Assembly (NCBI GenBank): GCA_964036665.1
Contig: OZ038529.1
Coordinates: 10,479,060 to 10,543,059, forward strand
Source of the DNA: Gordius sp. MW1
Taxonomy: Eukaryota; Nematomorpha; Gordioida; Gordea; Gordiidae
Length of the DNA stretch: 64,000 nt
Direction of reading: 5' to 3'
Positions within the stretch are counted from its first letter, which is position 1. Each line of letters opens with the position of its first letter. This document shows, in pieces, positions 3,432 through 61,906 of the stretch. A program made the position numbers and the translations under genes. A model generated the notes under the pieces. The model made no database searches and had not been told where the DNA came from. It saw nothing but the letters and a program-made list of their open reading frames with translations.

Positions 3432-3715
3432 TGTGGCGTTTTAGACATTGGCGAGATAAAGTAGCGAACGGACATTCACTTCACTTTTACTTGTCGATTA
3501 AAAAGCATCCATCCAGGAACAATTCCTTCCGTCATCATAAAATTCATCTTATCGCTCAAATAACATTCATCGCTAATATCTCAAATAACATTCATCGCTA
3601 ATATCTCAAATAACATTCATCGCTAATATCAATATTTGTTTATTAATATTTCATTTGCATTATTATCGCGCGTGTGAAAATACAGAAAATAAACAACTAC
3701 CTAGCAATCATTACA
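3432..3715 (+). repeat. 5' LTR (284 bp) of the gypsy element
   Basis: Begins TGTGGCG and ends CATTACA. It contains three tandem copies of a 25-bp unit (core CTCAAATAACATTCATCGC) at about 3555-3630, against two in the 3' LTR. Apart from this the two LTRs are identical. Confidence 0.92.
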
Positions 3716-3716
3716 T

Positions 3717-3733
3717 TGGTGACCTGAGACGTG
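3717..3733 (+). promoter_or_regulatory. Primer-binding site, probably tRNA-Trp
   Basis: TGGTGACC lies one base after the 5' LTR and continues TGAGACGTG up to the gag start. CsRn1-clade elements carry a site of this form complementary to the tRNA-Trp 3' end. The tRNA assignment rests on clade knowledge. Confidence 0.65.
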
Positions 3734-4573
3734 ATGGAAACAAACTCAACAATTCCAGACTCTAATGAACCAAGAGAAAGCGCAGTTCATGTGAGAATTC
3801 CTGAATTCCATTCTAAAAATATTCGCATATGGTTGTCACAGGTAGAAGCCGTGTTTCACACACGCAACATATCCTCGCAGAAGACTAAGTATTCCTACCT
3901 AGTCGAATCACTACCCCCAGAAGTCGCGGAAGAGGTGGCAGACCTCATATTCACGGTTCCTGAAATTACCCCTTACGACAAACTGAAGGAAGCAATCGTA
4001 AAAAGACTAGGAGACAGTGATGAAAAAAGGATAAGGAATTTATTCTCTTCGATATTCCTAGGAGACCGCACCCCATCCCAATTGGTAAGATACTTAAAAT
4101 CTCGTTTAGGTAATAATGTGATGGACGAAAAGATTTTAAGCCTCTGGATGGATAAGCTACCCCAACATGTGGTAAGCATGTTGGCTACAATGGGAGATGA
4201 CCAATCACTTGATCGTATAGCAGAAGTCGCTGATAGGATTCACGAAACGTTCAGAGTCAGTAGCTTAGCATCAGTAGCTACTCCCTATAACCTCACTCCA
4301 AATAACCCTACTCCCAATATTCCTATTCCCAATACTCAAACAAACGAAATGCAGGAACTGATCAAAGCTGTGTCACAATTAGAACTCAGAGTAAATCAAT
4401 TAACAGGCAATCCCAACGACAGTAGGACGACATGGAGAAGGTCAGGCAGATCTAGGTCATCATCCAGACAACGCCCAACTGACACATGTTGGTACCATTA
4501 TAAATTTGGAAAGGAAGCCAGGAAGTGCATGCAGCCATGCAATTTTAACACCAACTCCCAACAAAAAAACTGA
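3734..4573 (+). CDS. gag: Gag protein of CsRn1-like retrotransposon
   Basis: About 279 aa from the ATG at 3734; an in-frame GTG directly before it is less likely as the start. The N-terminal two thirds read as a Ty3/gypsy capsid region ([20 protein letters not shown], then VADLI and LGDRTPSQL, the usual landmarks of this clade). A T/P/N-rich linker with short repeats lies around residues 185-205, followed by an R/S-rich basic stretch. The C-terminal finger at about residues 255-272 is C-x2-H-x9-C-x3-C (CWYH...CMQPC), the CHCC type of the CsRn1 clade. The frame is intact and ends at TGA 4571-4573, overlapping the start of the pol frame through a slippery heptamer. Confidence 0.88.
4564..4570 (+). 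promoter_or_regulatory. A AAA AAC slippery site for -1 frameshifting
   Basis: In gag frame the last codons are CAA AAA AAC TGA, giving a canonical A-AAA-AAC heptamer just before the stop. A -1 slip here enters the frame that holds the protease, which stays open through 4597. A downstream pseudoknot was not modelled. Confidence 0.7.
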
Positions 4574-7500
4574 CGGGCCGTCCCATATGGGCGACAATGG
4601 GAAACGGCCGTACTTTCAGCCGCCTATTCTATTTATTCGACCGGTCCACCCAACGAAAATATCTCGTCGACACAGGCGCTGAAGTTAGCGTAATCCCACC
4701 CCCTCCCAAACATCCATTGATCCCGCATGGCCCAACTCTACAAGCGGCTAACCAAACCAGCATACACACATACGGACAAGTCGTATTGGGTTTAGACCTT
4801 GGTTTGCGACGGGAATTCAAATGGGTATTTTTAGTCGCAAACGTACACACCCCTATAATTGGAGCTGACTTACTGCACCACTATAAGTTAGTTGTGGACA
4901 TCAACAATAAACGACTTATAGACAGCACCACACAATTATCGTCGAGAGGAACATCCTCACCACACCAGACGTTCGGCATCCGTGTAGCACTCAGCAATCA
5001 CAGCACAAAATTCGATGCAATTCTGCAAGAATTTCCATCACTCATATCCCCTCTAAACTTCAACCGACAGATTCCACCCCATGATGTGCTCCACCACATT
5101 CTGACAAAAGGCCCAGCACAGCACTCACGCCCCAGACGATTGGCGCCCGATAAATTAAGTTCAGCCAAGAAAGAGTTCGAATATATGCTGGAACTTGGGA
5201 TCATCAGAGAGTCAAAAAGTAATTGGGCATCCCCATTACATCTGGCTGCCAAAAAGTCAGGCGACTGGAGACCGTGTGGGGACTATCGCGGGCTGAACAA
5301 AGTCACATTGCCTGATCGGTATCCCATTCCCCACATACATGATTTTTCCGCCAACCTCCACAACAAAACAATATTTTCCAAGCTCGACCTGGTAAGAGCA
5401 TATCACAACATTCCAATTGCAGCAGGTGACATCAGCAAAACAGCCGTGACAACGCCATTTGGTTTATACGAATTCACTAGAACCCTTTGGTCTAAGAAAC
5501 GCGGCTCAGACATTTCAACGGTTCATAGATGAAGTGTTAAGAGGGCTCGACTATGCCTACGCTTATATCGACGATATACTTATAGCTAGCACCTCGGAAA
5601 AAGAACACGAAAATCACTTAAGGACCGTTTTACAACGACTACAGGACTTTGACCTCCGAATAAGTCCTTTAAAATGCAAGTTTGGAACTCACGAACTCGA
5701 GTTTCTGGGACATCATATATCAAAAACTGGCATCACTCCACTAATGGATAAGGTCGACGCTATCCGCGAATTTCCACTACCGGACTCCACAAAGAAGCTT
5801 CGCAGATTCTTGGGGATGATAAATTTTTATCGTAGATTCCTACCCGGAATTTCCCGTACCCTTCAACCTTTAACGGACGTGTTAAAGAAACCAAAAAAAT
5901 CTCTAACTTTCAACGACGACCAGATAAAAGCGTTCGAAAAAGCAAAATCAGCTTTAGCAGATTTTACCGCACTTAGTTTCTTAGATACAGATCCACGAAC
6001 AGAAATAAGGTTGACTACAGACGCATCGGACACAGCAGTCGGAGCAGTATTGGAGCAGGTAATTTCGGACCAGGTAAAACCAATATCATTTTATTCGGTC
6101 AAGCTACAACCAACGCAAACGCGATATAGCACTTTCGGCCGGGAGCTTCTTGCAATTTATTTAGCTATTAAGCACTTTCGCCACTTTTTAGAAGGTCGAA
6201 GTTTCTCCGTGTATACGGACCACAAACCACTAATTTACGCCTTTAACGCTAAACCTGACCAGTATTCACCTAGAGAAACGAGACAATTGGACCTAATATC
6301 GCAATTTACAACTGATATTCGGTACATCAAAGGTGAAAGTAATACAGTTGCAGACGCGCTCTCTCGGACGGAGGTAGATTCTATCAGGTTACCAGAAATG
6401 CCCGATCTAGAAGAGATTAGTAGACAACAAATAAATGACGAAACCCTGAGAAACTTAAAGGATTCTTCATCTTTGAAATTGCAGTTAGTACCAATTCCAG
6501 GATCAGAGCGAAAAATCCTTTGCGATCTCTCAACCGCCAAACCACGACCGGTAATTCCAGAAACACTCAGAAAAATAGTTTTCGACCATTTCCACACTAT
6601 ATCACACCCAGGTATACGCGCCACTGTGAAACTAATTACAAATCGGGTAGTCTGGCCGTCAATAAACAAAGACGTTGTGAGATGGGCAAGAACTTGTGAA
6701 AGGTGCCAACGATGCAAGGTATTTCGACACACCGTTACAGTACCCGGAACATTCGCTAAACCCGACGCCCGTTTTGCCCACATCCACATAGACTTGGTAG
6801 GGCCACTACCACCATCAAACGGATATACGCATATGTTAACAGCAGTGGACCGATTCACCAGATGGCCCATGGCTATTCCTTTGAATGATACATCCACGGA
6901 GGTTATCGCAAAAAAGCTGATAGAACACTGGATTGCGAACTTCGGTGTGCCACATACCATTACCACCGATAGAGGATCACAGTTCCAATCATCTCTCTTC
7001 CGAGAACTCTCCAATCTCTTAGGTTGCACACATATTAAAACAACCGCCTACCATCCCGCCGCAAACGGACTCGTCGAACGATTCCATAGACAAGTCGTTA
7101 AAAGCCGCCGGGGAGACTAAGTGGAACGAAATTTTACCATTGATATTATTAGGATTACGTTCAACTATCAAAGAAGACATAGGAGCAACAACAGCAGAAT
7201 TGGTGTACGGTACGACCTTACGACTACCAGGAGACTTCGTCCTAAAAACCGAACCTAACCCATTACAACATCATTTCGTTGACAAGCTCAGGAGGACCAT
7301 GGCAAAAATTCCTTACCCCATACCAAAACACCATGCTACAACAAAAGAACAAGTTAGCAGCTACCTGTTCGAAGCAACCCACGTGTTCGTCCGACACGAC
7401 GCCGTCAGTAAGCCACTCTCTCCAACGTATGACGGTCCTTACAAAGTATTGAAACGTGAACCAAAATACTTCGTCATTGAAAAAAATGGTAAAAGAGATT

Positions 7501-7676
7501 CTGTCTCGATAGACAGATTAAAACCCTGCCATCGAAGCAGAGAGGAACCACCCTTTCAGACCGCCGACGAAACGCAAGCTGAGGCACCGACACAAGAAGC
7601 AGAAGAACCAACCAAAATAACTAGAAAAGGCAGAAAGGTCCATTGGCCGAAAAACCTTCGGGAATACATCACATAG
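4570..7676 (+). pseudogene. pol: Pol polyprotein (PR-RT-RNase H-integrase), two frameshifts
   Basis: Aspartic protease comes first, with DTGA at about 4669. Reverse transcriptase follows ([13 protein letters not shown] before the break; the YIDD catalytic box at 5564-5575). RNase H has a TTDAS motif near 6015 and a YTDHKPL motif near 6215. Integrase has an HHCC zinc domain at about 6585-6720 and acidic residues in HIDLVGP, TTDRGSQF and GLVERF. A C-terminal GPY/F module (YDGPYKVL, about 7428) precedes the stop at 7674-7676. The frame breaks near 5485, inside RT just before PFGLRN, and near 7092, just after the integrase glutamate. Everything else is open, so the copy is structurally complete but would not give a single Pol product. 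Confidence 0.88.
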
Positions 7677-7722
7677 TTTTTAGCCAACTCTTATCGACAT
7701 ATTTAAAACTTTAAATATATCT

Positions 7723-7732
7723 GGAAGGGGAG
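7723..7732 (+). promoter_or_regulatory. Polypurine tract
   Basis: GGAAGGGGAG lies immediately upstream of the 3' LTR, in the position used for plus-strand priming. Confidence 0.75.
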
Positions 7733-7735
7733 TAT

Positions 7736-7994
7736 TGTGGCGTTTTAGACATTGGCGAGATAAAGTAGCGAACGGACATTCACTTCACTTTTACTTGTCG
7801 ATTAAAAAGCATCCATCCAGGAACAATTCCTTCCGTCATCATAAAATTCATCTTATCGCTCAAATAACATTCATCGCTAATATCTCAAATAACATTCATC
7901 GCTAATATCAATATTTGTTTATTAATATTTCATTTGCATTATTATCGCGCGTGTGAAAATACAGAAAATAAACAACTACCTAGCAATCATTACA
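7736..7994 (+). repeat. 3' LTR (259 bp) of the gypsy element
   Basis: Identical to the 5' LTR except for having two rather than three copies of the 25-bp unit. It ends CATTACA, followed by the TAAC target duplication at 7995-7998. Confidence 0.92.
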
Positions 7995-21900: not shown

Positions 21901-24900
21901 GTCTTTAAGTTAAAAATTGCACTAGATGGCATATAAATTATAGTTATCTCCTCTTATTTGATTTGCGGTTTTCATTCGTCGTAAATCGTGTTCTTTCTTC
22001 ACAACTTACGTTATCATGTCAGGGTAAACCTATAGGAACACCTGATGCGGGTGCATATTTTCGCATAGTTAGCGAGCATGATGTGGGTTGTATCATCACA
22101 GCGCCAACGACCATGCGTGCAATCAGGCGAGAGGTGAGAAATTATTTTGTTTGCAAAAATTAAAGTGTATTATATGGTTGATTCTGCTTTATAGGACCCC
22201 GAAGCCGAGCAAGGCAAGAAATACCAGATAAAAAAGTATCAAATGTCTACATTTATCCTTTTTTTTTACTCTTTTATACCTTAAGTTAGTGCTGTAAAAA
22301 CGGCTGGGTTTTGTTTGGTCGACTTTTGGTTTTAGTCGACTAAACATAAACAGACCAAAGGCTTTTTGGTCTGTTTATGTTTAGTCGACCTCAGGCTTAG
22401 TCAAAATTTCAAAAACTCACCAGAAACGCCCATTATTTTTAGTTAAAACTGAGGTCGACCAAACAAAACCCAGCCGTTTTCACAACACTCCCTTCGGTGA
22501 ACGTTGCATTTTTATTTAATTTGTCGTTTCAACATGCCCCATTTGAGTTATAAATGCCACATTTTAGTATTTCTACATTTCTTGTATGTCATATGATATA
22601 TTTATTCATGATTAGAGTGATTTTTTAATTTATATTTTGTTCCATGTTTTTTTTAACGACGATCTCGTTCTTTTATTATTTTTGCACCTAGTATTCAAGT
22701 TTATTTTTCAGAAAGTTGCGTTTTAATACCATAACTTATAGTTATAGACCATTTAAAAGATGACAATATTCGTTTTAAAATTAATAGTAGAATAGGCTAT
22801 ATATCCTATATTACTATAAGCTTAGAAATAATTATATTAAAGATTCTCAGATACGATTTTTTCATACCTATTTTGATAATGAATAGTGCATTTTTGAGAA
22901 ATTCACACTTTTGAAACAGATTAAAGTCGATATTCTTGGCCGGGGAGCATTGTGACCACGAAACACTGGATTGGACCAAGGAAAAATTTGCCGTGCCCGT
23001 TATTGACCATTGGTGGCAAACAGGTAATTTGAAACATTTGTATGGTAGGAATGGGGTTGGGGCTTAGCGAATTAATTACTAAGCGCATTTATATCATTTA
23101 AACAATCAAAAATTCAGATTGAACCCGTTTAAAATTTATTATGATAAGAGAGTCTCAAACAAATTTATGTTGGTAAGTAGTTCCAGTTTAACTAATATGT
23201 AATAGCAACTTATAACACTTATACAAAATATATCCTGCAATCGGATTAATATTTATGATAGAGAATACTATGCTGAACAATAATGTGTTTTTAGTTTTTA
23301 TCCGAGTCGTCCTGATTATGAGAATAATAAGATTAAAGGTGCAAAAAAGATCTTTTTGCGCCTTTTAAATTTTTTTTAATATTAATATAATCCCATAGAC
23401 CGTTGATTAATCTACAGGGCTATGATTTTATTTTGTTTCATTATCCGCCTTTATCTTAACCCCCACCCCGTTTTAAAATTTCTTTTTCTATGTATAGGAA
23501 AACAGAGTTCATAAGAGTACATAGTAGTGTTGTAAAATGACCTAGGTTTTGTTTAGTCGATCTTTATTTCAACTAAGACTAACGCCCGACTTAACAAAAG
23601 CATACCAAAACACTCTGGTATGTTTTTCAAATTTCGACCAAGGCTATAGGTCGACTAAGAAAAACAGACCAAAAGAGTTTTTGTTTAGTAAAATAACATC
23701 AAAGGTCTACTAAACAAAACCCATTTCTTTTTAAAACACTCTTACATAGTACTTAAAAGACGACACGATTTCTAACGCCAACCTAACATTCTGTATTTAA
23801 CCCTATCTTTACTTAGAATCGGGTTGGCCTATGACTGCTAGTTGTTTGGGATTAGTGGATGAAGGCGTCAAAAGTATAAAGTACCCACCCAGGGGCACTA
23901 CGGGCAAAGCGGTACCGGGCTGGAAGATAGAACTTAGAAAAGAAATCTCAAAAAGTGAAGATTCCAAAGAAGATACTGGGCAAGGGGAGAATTTAGGTCG
24001 AATTGTTGTAAAACTTCCTCTACCTCCCGGCTTCATGAGCACGTTGTGGCAGGCTGACGATCGATTCGTTCAATTATATTTCTCTAACTATCCCGTACTT
24101 CTAGATTCTATTACACATAAATTACTTTCCCTAGCTCGCTCGGCCCACGGGCTGGGCGTCTTAAATTTATATTTAGGTGCGGGCTCGAAATTGCACCAGA
24201 TTCGATTTTAATGAGGTTTTTTTATAGTGTATTTTTTGACACTTTTTATTTGATTGTATAATATTAATCTAAAATTTCGAAGATAACGAACTTACTGCTT
24301 AAAATTTAAAAAAATCATCATTTTGAGCCCGGCAACTTTAGTTATAAAATTGGAACGGGTCGGGTTTGGGCATAAAAAATTAATCAAATTACACCTCTGC
24401 GTGATATGCTGGACTGTACAAAACATCAATGTTTCTATACAAGCCCGCCTGCCTAACAATTAGATTTAAATTTTGTAGCATTTTATAAGAGGCTTTGTCT
24501 ACTTAAATGTGTATATATTTTGTTATGGAAATTAATAAAGCATTTATCTAAATTTTAGGGTTATTACGATTCGTACGATGCAGGAATTGAAGATGCCAAT
24601 GGTTACATGTCCGTTATGTCGCGAATAGACGATGTGCTTAACGTGGCAGGACATCGTTTATCGGCTGGAGCTATCGAAGAGGTGCAATTTAGCCTTTTTT
24701 TGTAACATACCATAATTTGTAGTATTTTATTTTTCATGACTATTATATACAATTGTGTAGGATGTACACAAATATTGAGAACAATAGTGATTAAATACCT
24801 AGTAGGCAAGCCTATTCTATTATCATAAATCATTTATATATTAAATTTCAAAGGTTAAAGTACTATTTTGCCTCTCATTCTGATGAAGAATATCAGTGAT

Positions 24901-28651: not shown

Positions 28652-29328
28652 TTAAGGCAGATCCAAAATATTTTTATTGAAATAGATTGTCTGTATTTTG
28701 TTATAAATGTTTTGAGCATGTGTTATAATATTATCAAGCAAATAATTAAGCCTATTAAAATCATTATGAGTATAGTTTAGTTTAACCACTAAATTATGTT
28801 TTGTAGGAAGGCCCTTTAAAGCTATTTTGGTTACATTTTTCATTATCCAAGAATGATGATTGGCTAGAGTTTGTTCATAAGCAGGTATAGCCAGTACAGA
28901 AAGCCTTTCATCAACTCCTTTTTCCTTATTATGCACTGATATCTGTTTCATGAATTCAACAATAAATTCAAATGCTCGATGTAATCTTAACAGATTTCTA
29001 CAACCCGATGAATTTGTATTCCTTATATTTTGGATGTTTTCTATTTCGAACGTAACCATTGATTGAACAGTATTATATTTTTCGTTATTATTTTTAATAA
29101 AATTGTTTAATAAATTGACCTTAGTTTTAACATCTTCAGAGATAAATAGAAATATTGATCCCAGCAATAAAATAAATCTAAATATTAATTTGTGTTAAGC
29201 TAATATTACTTTTGTATTTCGTCATAACAGCTAAGATAAGTTATCAATTTTATGTCACTATCGGAGTAAGAGTTGCATTCAATCATTTTTGATAGCAAAG
29301 ATTCAAAGCTAAAATTTGAATCTTCCAT
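28652..29328 (-). CDS. CPTP: Ceramide-1-phosphate transfer protein (GLTP domain)
   Basis: CPTP-type proteins of the GLTP superfamily carry ceramide-1-phosphate between membranes in the cytosol. Exon 1 is 29328-29210, starting at the only upstream ATG in frame. Exon 2 is 29177-28652, ending at TAA. Together they encode 214 aa, the usual CPTP length. The junction rebuilds YDEIQK|FILLLGSIFLF, the typical helix leading to the domain. Visible landmarks are FISEDVKTKVNLL (acidic and lysine head-group contacts), SGCRNLLRLHRAFEFI (the conserved arginines), ANHHSWIMKN (the conserved histidine), ALKGLPTK, and a short C-terminus ending DLP. The intron is only 32 nt (GTAATA...TTTAG, 29209-29178); without it the frame stops after EIQK. 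No frameshift or stop lies in the domain. A processed pseudogene is unlikely because the frame is intact. Confidence 0.85.
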
Positions 29329-40347: not shown

Positions 40348-40724
40348 TAGTGTTGTTAAACGGATGGGTTTTGATTAGAGTTGTTAAATTGCTAACTTTC
40401 TTCAAACTCCAGACGCGAGCACACACACTGAGTTGCTTAATATGCGCGTTAGCACAATGTGTGCTCACTGTTCGGTGCACTAGGCAGAACAGTAGCATAT
40501 AAAAATGCTCGAGGGCGGAGCAGAAACTCGAGCAGATGGTAGCTGGAGTTGAAGAAATTTAGCAATTTAACAACTCTAGTTTTGATTGGTCGACCTTTGA
40601 TTTAACTAAGAATAACCGACTCTGGCCGGCTAAGAAAAACACACCAAAAAACCCTTGTCTATTTATGTTTAGTCCACTAAAACCAAAGGTCGACCAAGCA
40701 AAACCCAGCCGTCCTACAACACTA
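40348..40724. mobile_element. hAT-type MITE (TAGTGTTGT family), interrupted
   Basis: The left end TAGTGTTGTTAAACGGATGG and right end CCGTCCTACAACACTA belong to the family seen at 22287 and 48905. Inner GGTCGACC strings are inverted. A second element is inserted 28 bases from its left end. No target duplication is visible. Confidence 0.7.
40376..40578. mobile_element. 203-bp hAT-type MITE nested in another MITE
   Basis: Ends TAGAGTTGTTAAATTGCTAA and TTAGCAATTTAACAACTCTA are perfect inverted 20-mers. The octamer GTTTTGAT, which belongs to the outer MITE, is duplicated exactly (40368-40375 and 40579-40586). Confidence 0.9.
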
Positions 40725-48904: not shown

Positions 48905-49095
48905 TAGTGTTGTAAAAACGGATGGGTTTTGTTTGGTCGACATTTGGTTTTAGTCGACTATTAAAAGTTTTTTGGTCTACTGTTCTTAGTCGACCTCTAG
49001 GCTTAGTCTAAATTTGAAAAGCAGACCCGAATTGACCGTTAATTTAGTTGAACCAAAGTTCGACCAAACAAAACCCAGCCGTTTTTACAACACTT
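48905..49095. mobile_element. 191-bp hAT-type MITE (TAGTGTTGT family)
   Basis: Ends TAGTGTTGTAAAAACGGATG and CCGTTTTTACAACACTT are inverted, continuing GGGTTTTGTTTGGTCGA and its complement. Flanking octamers ATACCAAG and ATACCAAA differ at the last base. It is the cleanest copy of the family in the window. Confidence 0.85.
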
Positions 49096-51682: not shown

Positions 51683-52061
51683 CCTATGGGTAGTGTTGTT
51701 AATCTGCTGGAAGTGGTTGTGCTGGTATAGTGCTAAACCTGGTAAAGGCACATATCTCCTACCATTACCATCATCATTAAGCAGCACATGCTGCTTAATA
51801 ACCCGGTTACTACCGTGGCAGATTAAAGTTGCCATGGTATTGGAAGAGATGTAAGTAACCGGGCATTTGGTAGATTGGATTGATATAACCGTGGTATTGA
51901 GCAGGCTTGTTTTAAACTAAACATGGTTTTTAGCAAATTTAATTTTAGCTTACTATTAGAGTTGGTAGCTGCCATATAATGCTAATCAATATTTTTCAAT
52001 CATATATTAATGCAAAAATGGTGTTAAAAATTTAAATATTTTTATCCTCTTTCTGACTAGA

Positions 52062-52795
52062 GGGGGGGGGGGGGTTTTGCCCCCCCCCTTATTTTTTATC
52101 CTCTTTCTCACCAGGGGGAGAGGGGGGGGGGGGGGTGTTTCGCCCCCCCCCCCCCTTATTTTTATCCTCTTTCTTACCAGAGAGGAGGGGGGGTGATTTG
52201 CCCCCCCCCCCATTTTTTACGCCTTTCTCACGAGGGGGAGGGGGGGGGGGGTGTTTTGCCCCCCCTTATTTTTTATCCTCTTTCTTACCAGAGGGGAGGG
52301 GGGGGGGGGTGGTGTTTTGCCCCCCCCCCCATTTTTTACGCCTTTTCTCGCAGGGGGGAGGGGGGGGGGGTGTTTTGCCCCCCCCCTATTTTTTACGCTT
52401 TTTCTCACCAGGGGGGGGGGTGTTTAGCCCCCTCCCCTTATTTTTTACGCTCTTTCTCACCAAGGGGGGGGGGGGGTGATTTGCCCCCCCCCCCTATTTT
52501 TTACGCTTTTTCTCACCAGGGGGAGGGGGGGGGGGTGTTTTGCCCCCCTTATTTTTTATCCTCTGTCTTACCAGAGGAAAGGGGGGGGGGGGGTGTTTTG
52601 CATTTTTTACGTTTTTCTCACCAGGGGGGGGGGGCCCCATTTTTTATCCTCTTTCTGACCAGAGACGAGGGGAGATGTTTTGCCCCCCCCCCTTTTTTAC
52701 GCTCTTTTTTTACCAGGGGGAGGGGGGGGGGGTGTGTTTTGTTCCCCCCCCCACTATTTCTTATGCTCTTTCTCACCAGGGGGGGGAATGTTAGG
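52062..52795. repeat. Tandem array of about 13 G-run/C-run units
   Basis: Each unit of about 57 bp has a G run (mostly 9-15), a short TGTTTTG or TGATTTG spacer, a C run (mostly 7-13), then TTATTTTTTATCCTCTTTCT or ATTTTTTACGCTTTTTCTC followed by (T/A)CCAG. Two spacer types (TATCCTC and TACGC) are mixed. In each unit the G run faces the following C run across 7-8 bases, so every unit can form its own hairpin. Confidence 0.9.
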
Positions 52796-53208
52796 GGGGA
52801 AGGAGTTTTTATAAACAATAGGAAAAAATATAACTATAACTATTGTAGTCTAGCTAGCTACTCTACTAGTTAGTCTCTCTCGTCTCTCCTCTCATTCTAA
52901 ATCTCATGTAATGTATGAGATGAGATAAAAGAAGGAGGGGGGGGATGAGTTTTTATAAACAATAGAAAATGATTTAAGATTGCCACTTTTGGAAAATAAA
53001 AATAAAGTTTTAGCCAAAGTGGTTGAAAATATTTAAAGGGATAGACAGTTGCTTCAAATATGATAAAATTATTTTTTAATTATTTTAAGTCAATTATAAA
53101 TAACATTAATTGCAACGCTTGAGCCATAAGTTCCTGTAATTTTTAAAACCATTATAACAAGCATTTTGGCATTTATTTAAATATAATTTTAAAATCCCTC
53201 CCCCCCGG

Positions 53209-53525
53209 TTAGGAAGAGGGTAAAAAAGAAGAGGGGGGGGGGGGCAAACCCCCCCCCCCCCCCCCCCCCCCCCCTCCCTCCCCCCTGGTGAGAAAGAGGG
53301 TAAAAAATAGGGGGGGGGGGCAAAACACCCCCCCCTCCCCCTGGTGAGAAAAAGCGTAAAAAATGGGGGGGGGGGGGGAGGGGGCAAAACACCCTCCCCC
53401 CTGGTGAGAAAAAGCGTAAAAAATGAGAAAGGGGGGGGGGGCAAAACACCCCACCCCCCCCCCCCTCTGGTAAGAAAGAGGATAAAAAATAAGGGGGGGG
53501 GGCAAAACACCCCCCCCCCCCTCTG
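53209..53525. repeat. Inverted counterpart array, about six units
   Basis: The complementary unit (CTGGTGAGAAA(A/G)AG(C/G), GTAAAAAATA, G run, GCAAAAC or GCAAAC, C run) is repeated about six times. It includes a 31-base C run near 53244-53274. It is less than half the length of the left array. Confidence 0.9.
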
Positions 53526-53886
53526 GTCAGAAAGAGGATAAAAATATTTAAATTTTTTAACACCATTTTTGCATTAATATATGATTGAAAAATATTGATT
53601 AGCATTATATGGCAGCTACCAACTCTAATAGTAAGCTAAAATTAAATTTGCTAAATACCATGTTTAGTTTAAAACAAGCCTGCTCAATACCACGGTTATA
53701 TCAATCCAATCTGCCAAATGCCCGGTTACTTACATCTCTCCCAACCAAGCAACCATGGTTGCCAGTGATAGCAACCGGGTTATTAAGCAGCATGATGCTG
53801 GTTATGATGATGGTTGGGTGAGATGTATGCTACTACCATAGGTTATGGTAGTAGCATTTTGGCATTTTAACAACACTACCTATGGG

Positions 53887-61357: not shown

Positions 61358-61734
61358 CTTACCTACTTGCTTACGGATTCGAAGGTGAACTTCAAATCAT
61401 CAAAAATCAGCTGTTTTTAGTAGTTCTGTTTGGTTTTTAGGCATCCGTCCGACACTTTCTAAGATAACCCAATCAAAATGAGAGGTAAAAAAACTCTGCG
61501 CAAAATGTAATATATGTAAAATGTAATATATAGGCCAGGGTTAGGGTTACATTTAGTTATTTATTTGATAATATGTATTTATTTATAAAATAGATATTAT
61601 ATATTTTGATATAACTTATTTTGTTTTAATTGTACATATTACATGCGTATGAATATGCGTGAAAACCGGTCTCAAAAGTGTCGACGCTTATACCCGAACC
61701 GTTCTGTTTTTCATAATCGCATAAATTGACCATA
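61358..61734. other. Upstream region of PRPP synthetase with a TTAGGG-like repeat
   Basis: At 61500-61580 GCAAAATGTAATATA, GGCCAGGGTTAGGGTTAC and TTATTTGATAATATG match, in inverse or direct sense, strings at 35620-35700 and 63900-63960. The promoter of the minus-strand gene should lie here; no element could be defined. Confidence 0.45.
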
Positions 61735-61822
61735 CGTTTATTCATCAACCCTTTGGTCTGTTTATGTTTAATCAATTAAAACCAAGATCAACCAAACAAA
61801 ACCCAGCCGTTTTTACAACACT
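61735..61822. mobile_element. Right half of a TAGTGTTGT-family MITE
   Basis: GGTCTGTTTATGTTTA, CAACCAAACAAAACCCAGCC and GTTTTTACAACACT are the right side of the family. The left half is missing. Confidence 0.65.
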
Positions 61823-61906
61823 GGTGTGAATTTTTAGCCGCCTGATATTTATAGGATTTTTAAAGGAGCTCAATACCCAATCTTATTTTTTTAAAAATCT
61901 AATTTC

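Follow-up and report, generated by a model that had tools for sequence, protein, structure and literature searches.

A 2188-bp element that carries G-run/C-run arrays in inverted arms raises two questions: to which kind of transposon does it belong, and where do its arrays come from? It lies at positions 51691-53878 of the window, by which we mean the whole stretch of 64,000 nucleotides that was analysed (Gordius sp. MW1, contig OZ038529.1). Both questions were followed through the 212 Mb of genome searched, which comprise 12 contigs. A COX1 piece on one of them, of 14.8 kb, shows 97% identity to Gordius sp. VVA-2019, which is classed in Gordiidae (Nematomorpha), 92% to Gordionus alpestris and about 70% to insects. 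We call the hAT family of the window element family A, and a second family, which has Ginger1-like ends, family B.

The window element and its array unit

The element is enclosed by two exact copies of an 8-bp target-site duplication (TSD), CCTATGGG, at 51683..51690 and 53879..53886 of the plus strand. Its termini are the 12-bp inverted repeats TAGTGTTGTTAA (51691..51702, plus strand; 53867..53878, minus strand), in which 12/12 bases match. The left arm of 353 nt (51691..52043, plus) leads into a left array with 14 units of about 57 bp (52039..52790, plus). Across a spacer (52795..53190) follow the right array, which holds 6 inverted units (53191..53545, minus), and the right arm, a 338-nt inverted copy of the left one (53541..53878, minus); the boundaries of both arrays are approximate. 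When the first 353 nt are aligned with the reverse complement of the last 338, the arms show 91% identity over 333 columns; the inner 202 of these agree at 98.5%, the outer portion at about 80%, and an ungapped pairing gives 204 nt at 96%. The first-pass annotation had described the target duplication, the perfect terminal repeats and the long inverted arms with their tandem arrays in the same way, and all three descriptions stand. Searches of the window against Rfam and with a tRNA scan gave 0 matches each.

Read from outside to inside, a unit consists of a core like TATTTTTTAYSCTCTTTCTNACCAG, a G-run, usually the loop TGTTTTG, and a C-run. The unit counts come from a scan with the 25-nt core, and another count came out slightly lower; mononucleotide shuffles of the window element produced 0.05 core hits per shuffle (20 shuffles). 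TRF reports periods of 56 and 60 in the two arrays, and of 108 and 119 for doubled units. That every unit is itself a G-run/C-run hairpin, as had been claimed, is too strong: a clean TGTTTTG loop followed by a C-run is found in 10 of the 20 window units and lacking in the rest. A looser pattern of G-run, loop and C-run in full is matched by 358 of the 509 units in the family A and B sequences scanned.

Two window units are predicted to fold as DNA at -29.8 kcal/mol (z -2.8 vs 200 dinucleotide shuffles). For one or two idealised units, the predicted minimum-energy fold of the RNA is the G/C hairpin, and it stayed the same when G-quadruplexes were permitted; the proposal that the G-runs could form quadruplexes thus finds no support in the models. 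In the modelled RNA fold of the whole element, 292 of the 353 left-arm bases would pair with the right arm, whereas the left array would fold partly into local hairpins and partly onto the right array.

Family A and its hAT origin

The left arm of the window element recurs in at least 39 places at 90-94% identity, with one further match, a short one, at 84%; of the 415 candidates, 40 were scored. An 18-mer from the left end is present in 78 places and a 26-mer from the right end in 88, and the reversed-pattern controls gave 0 in both cases. Opposite ends pair within 10 kb for 57 of the 78 left ends, which yields sizes of 583-9616 bp; 21/78 left and 31/88 right ends remain single under these exact patterns. 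The first-pass annotation had proposed a transposing family, to be recognised by the same ends with target duplications at other loci, and this is borne out by exact 8-bp TSDs in 35 of the 41 copies checked, window copy included. A full reading of 20 loci showed a right end together with an exact 8-bp TSD in 16; L025 and L037 have the right end and a TSD that does not match, while L030 and L033 have no right end. Another 20 copies, judged from 20-base snippets, comprise 18 with an exact TSD, one with a single mismatch and one that does not match.

Two of the 35 exact-TSD copies share TCCGGATG within an apparent inverted segmental duplication on contig C4, so that at most 34 of the 35 TSDs are independent. 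The C4 regions at about 0.19-0.38 Mb and 1.46-1.68 Mb contain COX1 pseudogenes, hAT fragments and the TCCGGATG-flanked family A elements in mirror order, as if a segment of some 0.2 Mb had been duplicated in inverted orientation.

The short terminal inverted repeats (TIRs) of hAT elements begin T/CAG.G.., which TAGTGTTGTTAA at both ends of the window element fits. The target preference of hAT elements is nTnnnnAn, and over the 35 TSDs, T is favoured at positions 2-4 and A at 6-7; with T at position 2 in 17/35, A at 7 in 17/35 and A at 6 in 20/35, this is a bias and not a rule. Mutator and FB elements have TSDs of 9-11 bp, and an assignment to this group was rejected because the duplications of family A are 8 bp long. 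The structure is that of a foldback element, with long inverted arms, internal tandem repeats of variable number and mostly non-coding sequence. Copies with different numbers of units, which had been anticipated, were found: from 0 to 39 units stand on a side, as in L023 with 39 and 16, or in L028 with 17 and 0, the latter having lost its right arm. Two copies with exact TSDs have no array at all, namely L027 (597 bp, with two arms) and L032 (189 bp).

The hAT assignment made from the letters is confirmed by pieces of hAT transposase in long relatives. One of these, L037, carries a family A arm at either side together with 5 and 9 units; its ends enclose 7159 bp, and broken hAT transposase pieces lie on its minus strand. 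A 124-aa transposase piece has two close places in the genome (100%; 83-91%), and the rest reach 65% or less among the 150 of 262 candidates scored. The second long copy, represented by L048, L045 and L049, possesses the family A right end, an arm and three units. Its right arm with the 3 units (L048) is 93% identical to L037, and L045 matches L037 at 92% over 2249 nt, lacking the insert of about 2.3 kb that L037 carries. The C-terminal piece of L045 contains the hAT dimerisation domain PF05699 (E 1.4e-19); the Pfam scan gave no match for 3 of the 4 transposase pieces tried. Genome-wide, this domain has 3413 first-look candidates, 150 of which were scored. Within the sequence read, the second long copy showed no left end. 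Both long copies are broken, L037 is without a matching TSD, and no intact autonomous copy of family A was found, which is not needed for family A to be a non-autonomous family. The more distant transposases, at 65% or less, were not tied to family A ends. Three nearly identical places (L042, L043, L044) hold a related hAT with a 65% identical transposase piece in an open frame of 289 aa; its inverted arms measure at least 201 bp and have no G- or C-runs of 7 or more.

The spacers of short copies also lead back to L037. Among the matches listed, the window spacer corresponds to L037 interior positions 5826-5980 at 74% and to sequence from 6043 on, the L022 spacer to 556-701 at 91%, and the L035 spacer to 5558-5856 at 81%. 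The short forms of family A are thus deletion derivatives of a hAT element, and the arrays are already present in the copies that bear transposase. For this reason, the array-less L027 and L032 can as well be deletion forms.

Taken together, the window element very probably belongs to a hAT family of foldback type, which is non-autonomous and present at high copy number in the nuclear genome of this gordiid horsehair worm. A hAT transposase encoded elsewhere in the genome would act in trans on the ends and the subterminal arms; the element would be cut and pasted via its ends, and the arrays would ride inside.

Copies that share a complete array show that array-bearing elements have moved. L038 and L040 are 99.9% identical over 3193 columns with 3 mismatches, and 47 of the 48 gaps between them are changes in the length of a G- or C-run. 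Their sites and TSDs differ, and their left flanks are unlike, aligning over 239 columns at 70%; since the whole array is common to both, element and array transpose together. What separates near-identical copies is almost entirely the length of their runs, and exact G/C-run lengths should not be trusted; the order of units is solid, and the run lengths are either fast-changing or noisy. Arrays may lengthen or shorten at the hairpin-prone runs through slippage, unequal exchange, or template switching in the course of gap repair. An identical left flank of 300 bp makes L030 and L031 look like one insertion that was duplicated; the right end of L030 is lost, and the first 1031 aligned columns of the pair contain 0 mismatches and 18 gaps of 1 to 6 bases.

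Homogenisation of the two arms within an element was considered and is not supported. Over 16 elements (the window copy and 15 loci, with L030, L032, L033, L037 and L039 left out and L028, whose right arm is lost, kept at 0.596), the mean identity between inner left and right arms is 0.949 within an element vs 0.929 across elements; the right arm of another copy is the closer one in 11/16.

The window also contains short hAT-like MITEs with ends like TAGTGTTGTAAA, at 22287-22490, 48905-49095, about 61612-61823, and 40348-40578. Three of the four are alike, and the fourth (40348-40578) has about 30 bp in common with one of them. The terminus that the first-pass annotation saw as common to these MITEs and the element is indeed so in 10 to 12 of the 12 terminal bases, but the likeness ends there, as none of the MITEs has the arms of the window element. 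An origin of the element from one of them by array expansion was rejected: the matches that blastn gave between the four MITE stretches and the element were just 13-21 nt long and either terminal or due to chance, and the MITEs form a separate set.

The same array between Ginger1-like ends

Four unit-bearing loci without family A ends (L047, L091, L093 and L094) have one other arm in common, joined to the array, and L092, which was read as array only, adjoins this family B arm at C1:26652160. The arm has at least 40 places (40 of 184 candidates scored), of which 32, query included, are at 98% or more and 8 at 88-90%. With 32 of the 40 scored arms (query included) at this level of identity, family B is young. 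With up to 3 mismatches allowed, its other end occurs in 104 places, and in 67 of these without any (control 0). Among 36 of the left ends listed, a partner at most 7 kb away exists for 33 of the 40 right arms, which gives sizes of 1278 to 5579 bp. At the 11 sites read, the ends are of the form TGTA...TACA (TGTAA... and TGTAG...), and CCGG stands beside the left end in 9/11, beside the right end in 9/11 and beside both in 7/11. Ginger1 elements, as described in the accessible part of the report on them, are recognised by 4-bp CCGG target duplications and TGTNR ends (PMC2836005), and family B has both in common with them; unlike what is described there, it has inverted arrays, and its likeness to Ginger1 comes from ends and target, not from an integrase. 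L047 has an imperfect terminal repeat of about 40 bp, measured by eye, against a range of about 40-270 bp for the TIRs of Ginger1. Two right arms of family B face outward at C2:20132342-20135078 and at C8:10495803-10497244, and C3:5816590-5818790 has two left ends; these double forms are apparently palindromic, double-ended rearrangements.

A pattern that joins the end of the arm to the first unit's core finds the junction between arm and array in 94 places when up to 3 mismatches are allowed; 26 are exact matches (control 0). The junction is present in 33 of the 40 scored arms, including all 8 of the arms at 88-90%, which indicates that the array is an old part of family B; among the 7/40 arms without it by pattern, two (L092 and L094) are nonetheless array-bearing. 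Beyond the first unit, the arrays of family B are known from five loci.

The units of both families have the same 25-nt core, hairpin and polarity, and they stand behind different arms. The arms of A and B are dissimilar, apart from matches of 14 and 20 nt that are ascribed to chance; the A arm is absent from the five B loci, and the B arm from the window and the other loci read. Within this common design, the TATCC core makes up 242/409 units of non-autonomous A, 0/17 of transposase-bearing A and 0/83 of B, and the CACCC core 37/83 of B vs 6/426 of A. The TACCC core is found in 12/17 units of transposase-bearing A, in 40/83 of B and in 36/409 of the other A units, and the loop TGATTTG in 20/83 of B vs 2/426 of A. 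Exact 30-mers give the same picture genome-wide, with 411 matches of the CACCC type and 247 of the TATCC type (controls 0). For the first 100 places listed of the CACCC 30-mer, the ends within 4 kb are those of B in 99, of A in 0 and neither in 1; for the first 100 of the TATCC 30-mer they are those of A in 80, of B in 1 and neither in 19, compared with a chance expectation of about 0.7% near A and about 0.6% near B. Exact unit subtypes are therefore largely separate by family, and one ancestral array type, common to A and B, probably came first and then largely diverged in each.

Origin and role of the array

We lean, with slightly better than even confidence, towards the G-run/C-run hairpin minisatellite being a transferable module that passed between hAT and Ginger1-like elements. 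It would have kept its inverted polarity and later formed family-specific subtypes, both families spreading to tens of copies. In a reading to which we give an even chance, the array was born in one of the two families and moved to the other via nested insertion, gene conversion or template switching. TACCC cores in both transposase-bearing A and B point to an ancestor type common to the two array sets, and the frequent CACCC of B, rare in A, together with the TATCC that is common in non-autonomous A and absent from the 83 B units, is consistent with a later separation. No intermediate was seen, however, in that none of the A loci read contains a B arm and none of the five B loci an A arm.

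It is possible, though we think it unlikely, that the array is an independent mobile or amplifying minisatellite, which entered the hAT and the Ginger1-like element on separate occasions and travels in both as a passenger. Units alike in 25-nt core, hairpin and polarity behind dissimilar arms would be expected in that case, and among the first 100 listed places of each subtype, 19 of TATCC and 1 of CACCC have none of the ends used within 4 kb. These 20 places may nevertheless be copies of A or B with mutated ends, and there is no free array among the loci read completely. The constant position of the family B junction in 94 places is a further argument against this alternative and suggests that the array was acquired once, early.

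Improbable is the view of the arrays as extra transposase-binding sites that raise mobility, for which Galileo is the model: its repeats contain transposase-binding sites, and its TIR repeats bind its THAP domain, according to the accessible text (PMC3688188). Here, the two families that have the array in common differ in ends and target sites and so should use different transposases, which makes a role as binding site of a single transposase less likely, and the array-less L027 and L032 have exact TSDs. A passenger, or a structure that faces the host, is more likely; as the transposases of the two families should differ, the array, if it has an effect at all, would act on the host, for instance on silencing, replication or repair. 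We give almost no credence to an assembly or sequencing artefact, to which the variable G/C-run lengths of otherwise identical copies might point, because L038 and L040 agree in unit order and number at separate sites, L030 and L031, the duplicated pair, are free of mismatches along 1031 columns, and the unit pattern has 707 exact matches in the genome vs 0 for the reversed pattern.

As to why foldback transposons keep arm arrays, the answer tested for Galileo is extra transposase-binding sites. An array in two families of one animal, one more diverged (A) and one young (B), makes the choice between binding site and passenger directly testable, and supplies many replicates of G/C-run arrays in which their continued mobility can be studied.

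The first-pass annotation knew of no named family built in this way, a view that does not hold, since foldback elements with arm repeats, and even a hAT element with tandem-repeat TIRs, are already published. In the FB elements of Drosophila melanogaster, the inverted arms are themselves tandem arrays, as in the window element; unlike it, they are Mutator-type, with a 9-bp TSD and other repeat units. Among the known relatives, the closest, from what is accessible of its description, is gadMor-hAT-1784 of Atlantic cod, which is likewise hAT-derived, without a transposase gene, and has long TIRs (about 600 bp) of tandem repeats and a high genomic coverage of its TIRs (PMC12368964). Its unit of 167-169 bp is different, and the available portion of that report mentions neither G-run/C-run hairpins nor a unit found across superfamilies. 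Tetris of Drosophila virilis is also a foldback element with tandem repeats of variable number inside its TIRs, and the accessible text describes a MITE with the same ends and repeats that also form arrays outside the element (PMC4079207). It differs from the family studied here in its 220-bp unit, in the suggestion of Mutator by its authors, who give a TSD of 8-10 bp, and in that no autonomous copy was found; a second superfamily with its unit is not mentioned in this part of the text (PMC4079207). Galileo of Drosophila, as far as the available sections describe it, shares very long TIRs, extended by internal tandem repeats, and many structural forms, but belongs to the P superfamily, with a THAP transposase and a TSD of 7 or 8 bp whose consensus in D. 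willistoni is GTATTAC (PMC3688188; PMC4168063).

A tandem unit common to hAT and Ginger elements is not reported in the open-licence literature searched, and this literature, as far as its accessible text goes, yielded no paper on nuclear transposons of Nematomorpha. Palindromes are described from the mitochondrial genomes of the phylum in the accessible parts of two reports (PMC6649704; PMC10380579) and are not linked to the arrays described here.

Elsewhere in the window, at positions 3555-7909, ORFs that we take to be Gypsy-like by their motifs are bracketed by two places where one and the same 25-bp unit is tandemly repeated. A Pfam search of eight window ORFs gave one match, a glycolipid transfer protein domain (GLTP, E 3.2e-35) in the ORF at 28652-29194 of the minus strand. 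Beyond the window, several nuclear places resemble mitochondrial COX1 (C8:2829490-2830827 and others), and one of them is nearly full length, with its TGA codons retained.
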